A DNA stretch of 64,000 nt from Brachyhypopomus gauderio (Eukaryota; Chordata; Actinopteri; Gymnotiformes; Hypopomidae): positions 21,820,482 through 21,884,481 of the forward strand of contig NC_135226.1 in NCBI RefSeq assembly GCF_052324685.1, read 5' to 3'. Numbering within the stretch: the first letter of the stretch is position 1; the number at the start of each line of letters is the position of its first letter. The position numbers and the translations under genes are program-made. This document shows positions 42,601-45,840 of this stretch, in pieces. The notes below the pieces were generated by a model. It did no database searches. It was not told where the DNA came from and saw only the letters and a list, made by a program, of their open reading frames with translations.

Positions 42601-45600
42601 CAGAGGGCCTTTAATGTTTTAACCAAATATGCAGGTGGACTGGTGTAGATATGCGGTACCTTGGGCTGAAAGGCGCCCTGCAGAGAGCCGAACATCCCCG
42701 CTGGAGGCAACACTGTAGCCATGCCGGGCAGCCCGGACGGGAAGGGGTGGAAGACCTGAGACACAGGGCAGCGTTAGTGTGGGTCAGAGCCCAGGACACA
42801 CTGCCTACAGCTGTACTGCTCTGGGACACAGGGCAGGCCAGCGTTAGTGTGGGTCAGAGCCCAGGACACACTGCCTACAGCTGTACCGCCCCGGGAGAGC
42901 TGACACTCAATCTCTGAACAATAGATCACTTTTGTGATTTGTACATGAAGGCGAGTTTATTTTTTAAAAGTCAGTGCACTTAATTTACAGTGTGAGCAAA
43001 AATGTAAAAATAACAACAGTGTAAAATAACAGACTTACACTCTGCCTGTGGAAGGTGTCGACCTTTGGTGGGTATTTGTCAAACTGAAAAGAAAAATGCA
43101 TCTTTTACTACTTCACATACAGACGTTAAAAACATATTATAGGAATATGCAACAAATCAGATATCACATGCTACCCATATCACACTAATCATAAACTTTA
43201 CTGTTGCAGACATGACAACTACAATTGCTAATGTTAACAAATTCAGACTGACGGCGTCCAAAGTCCAGCGATGAAGATAAAGTGAAGATAAAGTGAAGAT
43301 AAAGGCGTGTGTGGTACGCACCAGGGGCCCGGCGGGGCCCGGCAGGGGGCCCGGCAGGACGGCCGGGTGGGGGTAGGGCGTGAAGGTGTGCTGGTGCGTG
43401 TGCTGGTGCGTGTGCTGGTGCTGGTGGAACTCGGTGCGCAGGTATCCGGGCGGCACCAGCGGGGCTCCTCGGTCCTGAGAGGCCAGGAAGCGGGAGTTCA
43501 GCTCCTGTCGCAGCAGGTCCTGTTCTGTGGGTCAGGCGGGACGCAGGGTTAGCTCGCGCGAGCGGCTGTGGAGACGGCGCAGTGGCGTACCTGTGTAGGG
43601 GGACGTACCTGTGTAGGGGGGCGTACCTGTGTAGGGGGGTATGTAGGGGGGCGTACCTGTGTAGGGGGACGTACCTGTGTAGGGGGGCGTACCTGTGTAG
43701 GGGGGCGTACCTGTGTAGGGGGGTATGTAGGGGGGCGTACCTGTGTAGGGTGGCGTACCTGTGTAGGGGGACGTACCTGTGTAGGGGGGCGTACCTGTGT
43801 AGGGGGACGTACCTGTGTAGGGTGGCGTACCTGTGTAGGGGGACGTACCTGTGTAGGGGGGCGTACCTGTGTAGGGGGACGTACCTGTGTAGGGTGGCGT
43901 ACCTGTGTAGGGGGACGTACCTGTGTAGGGTGGCGTACCTGTGTAGGGGGCGTACCTGTGTAGGGGGGTATGTAGGGGGCGTACCTGTGTAGGGTGGCGT
44001 ACCTGTGTAGGGTGGCGTACCTGTGTAGGGGGGCATACCTGTGTAGGGGGACGTACCTGTGTAGGGGGGTGTGTAGGGGGCGTACCTGTGTAGGGTGGCG
44101 TACCTGTGTAGGGTGGCGTACCTGTGTAGGGTGGCGTACCTGTGTAGGGGGGCATACCTGTGTAGGGGGACGTACCTGTGTAGGGGGGTGTGTAGGGGGC
44201 GTACCTGTGTAGGGGGGTGTGTAGGGGGGCGTACCTGTGTAGGGTGGCGTACCTGTGTAGGGGGGCGTACCTGTGTAGGGGGGCATACCTGTGTAGGGGG
44301 GTGTGTAGGGTGGCGTACCTGTGTAGGGGGGCGTACCTGTGTAGGGGGACGTACCTGTGTAGGGGGGTATGTAGGGGGGCGTACCTGTGTAGGGGGGTGT
44401 GTAGGGGGCGTACCTGTGTAGGGGGGTGTGTAGGGGGCGTACCTGTGTAGGGGGGTGTGTAGGGGGCGTACCTGTGTAGGGGGGTATGTAGGGGGGCGTA
44501 CCTGTGTAGGGGGGCATACCTGTGTAGGGGGACGTACCTGTGTAGGGGGGTGTGTAGGGGGCGTACCTGTGTAGGGTGGCGTACCTGTGTAGGGTGGCGT
44601 ACCTGTGTAGGGTGGCGTACCTGTGTAGGGGGGCATACCTGTGTAGGGGGACGTACCTGTGTAGGGGGGTGTGTAGGGGGCGTACCTGTGTAGGGGGGTG
44701 TGTAGGGGGGCGTACCTGTGTAGGGTGGCGTACCTGTGTAGGGGGGCGTACCTGTGTAGGGGGGCATACCTGTGTAGGGGGGTGTGTAGGGTGGCGTACC
44801 TGTGTAGGGGGGCGTACCTGTGTAGGGGGACGTACCTGTGTAGGGGGGTATGTAGGGGGGCGTACCTGTGTAGGGGGGTGTGTAGGGGGCGTACCTGTGT
44901 AGGGGGGTGTGTAGGGGGCGTACCTGTGTAGGGGGGTGTGTAGGGGGCGTACCTGTGTAGGGGGGTATGTAGGGGGGCGTACCTGTGTAGGGGGGCATAC
45001 CTGTGTAGGGGGACGTACCTGTGTAGGGGGACGTACCTGTGTAGGGGGGCATACCTGTGTAGGGGGACGTACCTGTGTAGGGGGGCGTACCTGTGTAGGG
45101 GGGTGTGTAGGGGGCGTACCTGTGTAGGGGGGTATGTAGGGGGGCGTACCTGTGTAGGGTGGCGTACCTGTGTAGGGGGGCGTACCTGTGTAGGGGGCCG
45201 TACCTGTGTAGGGGGGCGTACCTGTGTAGGGGGGCGTACCTGTGTAGGAGGGCGTACCTGTGTAGGGTGGCGTACCTGTGTAGGGGGCGTACCTGTGTAG
45301 GGGGGCGTACCTGTGTAGGGGGGCGTACCTGTGTAGGGGGCGTACCTGTGTAGGAGGGTGTACCTGTGTAGGGTGGCGTACCTGTGTAGGGGGCGTACCT
45401 GTGTAGGGGGGCGTACCTGTGTAGGGGGGCGTACCTGTGTAGGGGGCGTACCTGTGTAGGAGGGTGTACCTGTGTAGGGGGCCGTACCTGTGTAGGGGGG
45501 CGTACCAGTGTAGGGGGGCGTACCTGTGTAGGGGGGCGTACCTGTGTAGGAGGGTGTACCTGTGTAGGGGGGCGTACCTGTGTAGGGGGCGTACCAGAGT

Positions 45601-45840
45601 AGGGGGCGTACCTGTGTAGGGTGGCGTACCTGTGTAGGGGGGCGTACCTGTGTAGGGGGCGTACCTGTGTAGGGGGGTGTACCCATGTAGGGGGGGCGTA
45701 CCTGTGTAGGGAGCGGCTGGAGACGCACCTGCCACAGCCACGGCTCCCCCGGGCAGGAGGGGCGGAGGGGGTAACGCAGTCGGAGAAAACATGGCGTGAT
45801 CTCGCTGCTCCCGGGAACTCGGACAGCACCGGCGCCGAGC
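39618..45840 (-). CDS. auts2: AUTS2-family protein, C-terminal half (5' part not found)
   Basis: Minus-strand exons, 5' to 3': about 45840-45729 (start unresolved), 43524-43322, 43083-43039, 42755-42660, 42357-42286, 42129-42100, 41964-41893, 41782-41641, 40984-40804 and 40689-39618; phases agree throughout. AUTS2 is a nuclear neurodevelopmental protein that joins PCGF3/5-type PRC1 and recruits p300 and CK2 to activate genes. Visible landmarks: [28 protein letters not shown], the His-X repeat [24 protein letters not shown], the diagnostic block [17 protein letters not shown] followed by [25 protein letters not shown], and a basic, proline-rich C terminus with SPRRTSS before the stop. FBRSL1 shares many blocks, so a fish auts2b or an fbrsl1 relative is possible; auts2 is favoured by the His-X repeat and overall order. 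A 30-nt microexon (42100-42129) encodes [10 protein letters not shown], the same length as its mammalian counterpart but diverged. Confidence 0.85.
43590..45712 (-). repeat. ~2.1-kb, 18-bp minisatellite filling an auts2-family intron
   Basis: More than 100 units of GTACCTGTGTAGGGGGGC and shorter GTGTGTAGGG or GTATGTAGGG variants. On the gene's sense (minus) strand each unit reads CCCCCTACACAG|GTACGC, combining an acceptor-like and a donor-like sequence. The array begins about 17 bp after the donor of exon ~45840-45729 and ends about 65 bp before the acceptor at 43524. All three minus-strand frames are open for 740-890 codons. A 481-bp higher-order duplication is visible: plus-strand frames starting at 44095 and 44576 encode the same 108 residues. 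Confidence 0.95.

Follow-up and report, generated by a model that had tools for sequence, protein, structure and literature searches.

An 18-bp minisatellite with a donor-like motif in most of its units fills nearly the whole of one intron of an auts2-family gene in the 64-kb window, i.e. the entire stretch of Brachyhypopomus gauderio DNA that was analysed. With a probability of roughly 0.7, this array is an ordinary GC-rich minisatellite that has been expanding within a short intron, is removed together with it and allows minor leakage. A small intron, represented today by the 76 nt outside the array, would have been enlarged to 2204 nt by duplication of a repeat unit whose sequence includes, by chance, a donor of moderate strength, CAG|GTACGC. 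The whole array would be removed by the spliceosome from the donor at 45729, using an acceptor and a branch point that both lie in the unique sequence 3′ of the array, and low-level leakage would reach the first unit donors. The copy number, represented here by one haplotype, would be expected to vary between individuals. Ordinary growth is supported by a shuffle control, an exact 536-bp repeat, flanking direct repeats, preservation of the reading frame at chance level and a branch-point motif that lies outside the array. Weighing against it are units that outscore the true donor (16 of 101) or are predicted to be more accessible than it (97 of 101), unit AGs that all outscore the real acceptor, and an invariant G, G, T, A in the core of the unit. 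The anatomy, motif counts, scores and reading frames given below were obtained directly from the window, and positions are numbered from its first base.

The host gene and all of its features described here are located on the minus strand. Pfam Auts2 was matched twice (48.6 and 39.9 bits, against a cut-off of 23 bits), in exons later than those flanking the array. A stretch of exon 9 and the spliced exons 8-12 (160 aa) yielded no Pfam family, and the spliced protein yielded no PDB match at E 0.01. The gene can be assigned to the auts2 family and may be either auts2a or auts2b. Judging by their order and phase, the flanking exons were taken to correspond to exons 8 and 9 of zebrafish auts2a as numbered in PMC5555464. 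Exon 8 (45729..45792, 64 nt) was read from a Met codon, with a translation starting MFSP..., as far as CAG|GTGCGT, the true donor, position 45792 marking this codon and not the mapped 5′ end of the exon. In zebrafish, the coding part of exon 8 is given as 94 nt for isoform i3 (PMC5555464), and one base is left over in both species. Exon 9 (43322..43524) comprises 203 nt, which is not a multiple of 3, and the host intron between the two (43525..45728) has a length of 2204 nt, likewise not divisible by 3; the exon phases across it join as ...AVA|EQDLL.... Ten acceptors and eleven donors of the gene were assigned manually between 40804 and 45729 and then located with a script, the donor at 40804 being doubtful. 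Exon 9 also contains a 12-bp coding repeat at 43386-43421 that encodes a His/Gln/Thr-rich run. A literature search for AUTS2 in combination with minisatellite retrieved one paper, which to judge by its title deals with leukaemia rearrangements, and no report of the array.

The minisatellite (43584..45711) accounts for 2128 of the 2204 nt of the intron. It consists of 127 units, of which 126 are complete, while the last runs into the flank. Among the complete units, 82 measure 18 bp, 23 measure 12 bp, 20 measure 17 bp and one measures 19 bp. An AG|GT is present on the minus strand of the intron at 101 sites, 72 of which read CAGGTACGC; the count on the plus strand is 0. The first-pass annotation, which had described an Auts2-family intron made of tandem splice-site-like motifs beginning about 17 bp behind the true donor, was borne out in these respects, as exactly 17 intron bases separate that donor from the array. 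A search for CTACACAGGTACGC with at most one mismatch gave 102 matches in the window, every one of them on the minus strand within the array, compared with a mean of 0.01 matches over 100 shuffles. The 12-bp units (23 of the 126 complete units) do not contain the donor part. In the 104 long units (103 complete units and the last), changes are mostly found in the C tract and at the CpG. The A at the junction differs in three units, numbers 2, 7 and 12, close to the 5′ end, and the G, G, T, A that follow it are identical in all 104. Head-to-tail units within the range of about 7-100 bp, variant units and duplications are all present, as is typical of a minisatellite.

The true donor, CAG|GTGCGT at 45729/45728, is located outside the array. 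Donors were scored with a general human donor matrix and a U1 end sequence, neither of which derives from this species. With the matrix, the unit donor CAG|GTACGC scored 4.01 bits versus 5.16 bits for the true donor, and 98 of the 101 unit sites reached at least 4.01 bits, a value attained by 34 of 3812 GTs outside the intron on the same strand and by 4 of the eleven donors assigned to the gene. Sixteen units carry CAG|GTACGT, which at 5.29 bits lies slightly above the true donor. Duplexes with U1 had calculated energies between -7.6 and -8.4 kcal/mol in the units and of -8.0 kcal/mol at the true donor. A local folding calculation predicted 97 of the 101 unit donors to be more accessible than the true donor, which speaks against their being hidden; no sequence feature was thus found that would explain why the true donor should prevail. 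Since the unit donors score near the true donor and lie close to it, some leakage is to be expected, and leakage to the first of them is probable. At the exon that ends at 42286, the donor reads AGA|GTACGC, in agreement with the first-pass annotation, which had noted the same hexamer there; with -1.59 bits and a U1 duplex energy of -3.4 kcal/mol, it ranks last among the eleven donors.

Splicing from the first unit donor (GT at 45700..45701, 27 nt into the intron) to exon 9 would add 27 nt in frame, encoding the nine residues GASPAAPYT, and this is the product expected foremost from leakage. The second unit donor would add 64 nt out of frame, and the third, fourth and fifth would add 81, 99 and 117 nt in frame. 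When all 101 unit donors were joined to exon 9, 31 joins kept the frame with no stop, 46 lost the frame and met a stop, and 24 lost the frame with no stop through exon 9. Micro-isoforms arising from unit donors, as had been suggested earlier, are possible, but the frame would be kept at just these 31 sites. Selection for frame was rejected, since 31 of 101 corresponds to the third expected by chance. Stop codons are absent from all three sense frames across the array, as had been claimed, but the claim does not extend to the whole intron: two of the three frames stop within its last 60 nt. The exon frame read into the intron ends at a TAA at 43549-43551, so that full retention would yield 726 codons from the junction, and a TGA in frame with the downstream exon is located at 43532..43534, between array and acceptor.

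Donor-bearing minisatellites are already known from human genes, and the array would belong with them: like the donor-bearing intronic VNTRs of the ABCA7 and IFI6 type, it adjoins an exon donor and carries, on the transcribed strand, a plausible donor within its unit. In human ABCA7, a VNTR of 25-bp repeats occupies a C-rich region of intron 18 that begins with the exon 18 donor; alleles are described as ranging from 298 to 10,678 bp (12 to 427 units), transcripts that retain a single unit were observed, and exon 19 is skipped more often as the array lengthens (PMC5954066). As in ABCA7, the present array is an intronic, C-rich minisatellite beside an exon donor with a donor within its unit, and its size falls within the range spanned by the ABCA7 alleles. 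The two differ in that the true donor of ABCA7 is the first GT of the array, whereas here it lies outside, and in that unit retention and length-dependent skipping were measured in ABCA7, whereas the present array is known from its sequence. The human IFI6 (6-16) minisatellite is described as a source of further donors for its transcript (PMC4526556; also PMC2572611 and PMC3618361). It resembles the present array in offering minisatellite units as several candidate donors for one transcript; two downstream units have been reported as donors in IFI6, giving rise to three mRNAs, whereas the donors here are predictions. The donors in the IFI6 minisatellite were reportedly described by Turri et al. 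in 1995.

The layout shared with ABCA7 intron 18 (PMC5954066) and the predicted strength and accessibility of the unit donors would also be consistent with an array that modifies splicing according to its length in a wide sense, a longer array holding more U1 and other factors and thereby lowering inclusion of exon 9. The ABCA7 paper, on the other hand, proposes splice-factor motifs within its own unit (PMC5954066), and such an effect is considered unlikely here. Somewhat more doubtful is the specific form in which the array, situated in a gene of neurodevelopment, would be a splicing rheostat set by its own length, with unit donors competing with the true donor. If this were true, the length of the allele would set the share of mRNA with in-frame insertions of the PYTGTP type, with a frameshift or with exon 9 skipped. 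Should the unit donors be used, the intron would offer a natural test of how the spliceosome chooses among about a hundred near-equal donors, and an autism-linked gene family would have its counterpart of the ABCA7 VNTR. Should they be unused, a hundred well-scoring intronic donors would be silent, which bears on the predictive reach of motif scores.

The array had also been proposed to act as a sponge for U1 snRNP. A cell-wide effect of this kind is implausible, given the abundance of U1, and what is left of the proposal is a local decoy acting on its own transcript, for example by guarding against early polyadenylation or by slowing splicing. The 101 sites, whose calculated U1 duplexes bracket that of the true donor, would suit such a role, and in another gene, U1 has been reported to be trapped by a pseudo-5′ splice site (PMC6002489). 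The core of the unit, however, shows no sign of selection beyond what homogeneity of the repeats explains. The invariant G, G, T, A could be read as constraint, but homogenisation inside repeats explains it equally well, and the invariance is therefore poor evidence of selection. A local decoy is thus regarded as very improbable.

Under the preferred reading of ordinary minisatellite growth, a donor-like unit would have arisen by chance and then multiplied by tandem growth. Shuffling of repeat units was carried out for 39 tandem-repeat loci of period at least 7 in the window, taken from 57 rows with one unit per locus (2000 shuffles each, 300 for units of at least 100 bp; donor threshold 4.01 bits). 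On the 78 array-strands, 1.33 donor-bearing arrays were expected and one was seen, the 18-bp array itself, indicating that a single donor-like unit in this repeat-rich window corresponds to chance level. Restriction to the 27 loci with at least 3 copies gave an expectation of 1.23 of 54. For a smaller set of 21 arrays, hand-picked from 75 TRF rows by leaving out two- and three-base repeats, overlapping rows and some further arrays that were short or had few copies, 1.04 of 42 were expected and one was seen. The unit of the array itself reached the donor score on one strand in 4.05 percent of its shuffles. An origin of the array in the true donor was also considered and rejected. The two are similar at 10 of 13 positions, yet this was equalled by 328 of 5000 shuffles, and of nine further donors in the gene, four had a similarity score as high as its 7.0 or higher (7.0, 8.0, 8.5 and 7.0), so that descent from the true donor is unsupported rather than excluded. 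A search of viral contigs with the unit gave one non-tandem match in each of 2 contigs, which were taken as chance.

Two further features bear on the growth of the array. A 536-bp segment at 44495..45030, whose length was derived from word counts by size, has an identical, overlapping copy offset by 481 bp, at 44014-44549; this points to a recent duplication or, with lower probability, to a misassembly. The exact repeat and its lag of 481 bp would fit an assembly artefact affecting part of the array length or this repeat, but the order of neighbouring units is diverse outside it and the 64-kb window contains no N, which makes an artefact a distant prospect. Minisatellites can grow between short direct repeats. 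Comparison of the flanks showed a direct repeat, CGTCTC(CA)CAGCCGCTC, with one copy at the 5′ flank (45711..45725) and one at the 3′ flank (43560..43576), which fits growth of this kind. This repeat was noticed by eye before the shuffle test, in which 3 of 5000 single-base shuffles matched its quality.

The first-pass annotation had read each unit as both donor and acceptor, and had considered recursive splicing, in which each unit would act as acceptor and donor at once and the intron would be excised stepwise. The donor half was upheld, while the acceptor half proved weaker. Each full unit has a C tract and CACAG|GTACGC, and with a tract-and-AG score not derived from this species the unit AGs (median 3.50) exceeded the real exon 9 acceptor (0.91) at 101 of 101 sites. 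Branch-point motifs were absent from the array, both as yUnAy (0; mean of array shuffles 2.1, minimum 0) and as UnA (0; mean 5.4, minimum 1). A yUnAy at 18-44 nt upstream was found for 0 of 101 unit AGs and for just 4 of 10 real acceptors of the gene; because the other six do without it, its absence from the array carries less weight than it might seem to. Two yUnAy occur in the last 80 nt of the intron, both within the unique flank, their A residues preceding the exon by 25 nt and 8 nt; the former belongs to a CTAAC at 43548..43552 (A at 43549), outside the array. Joining exon 8 to the 101 unit AGs gave 46 messages that reach exon 9 in its frame but via a stop; in 31 others the frame is lost and a stop follows, and in 24 it is lost with no stop through exon 9. 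An open native frame was obtained from none of the 101, indicating that use of unit acceptors would break the message.

The units resemble the ratchet points of long Drosophila introns in having an AG|GT core after a pyrimidine tract (PMC6110457, PMC2773006), and differ from them in their 18-bp tandem arrangement, the 2.2-kb intron, the lack of a branch-point motif in the array and their low composite score. This acceptor-donor score followed the 80 percent rule of PMC2773006, with our own choice of matrices and normalisation; it ranged from 0.57 to 0.74 over 102 sites including the true junction, so that 0 of 101 units reached 0.8. Elsewhere in the window, one of 511 AGGT sites did so (0 of 275 on the minus strand, 1 of 236 on the plus strand). 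With these scores, an intron of only 2.2 kb, an array without a branch-point motif and large zebrafish introns reported as unenriched for recursive sites (ratio 0.9; PMC2773006), recursive splicing was rejected as scarcely credible.

The window contains many other arrays, among them a 14-bp minisatellite of about 61 copies at 22227-23099, where strong strand bias was observed (GC skew -0.548 in 22001-23000). A UnaL2 LINE 3′ stem-loop is located at 5107-5160, beside an open frame (5362-5880) that appeared reverse-transcriptase-like by eye, and a 44-bp tandem array (4582-5098) lies just past the end of the LINE. The UnaL2 family is typical of fish. An Rfam tRNA match on the plus strand at 20806-20877 may represent a gene or a SINE.
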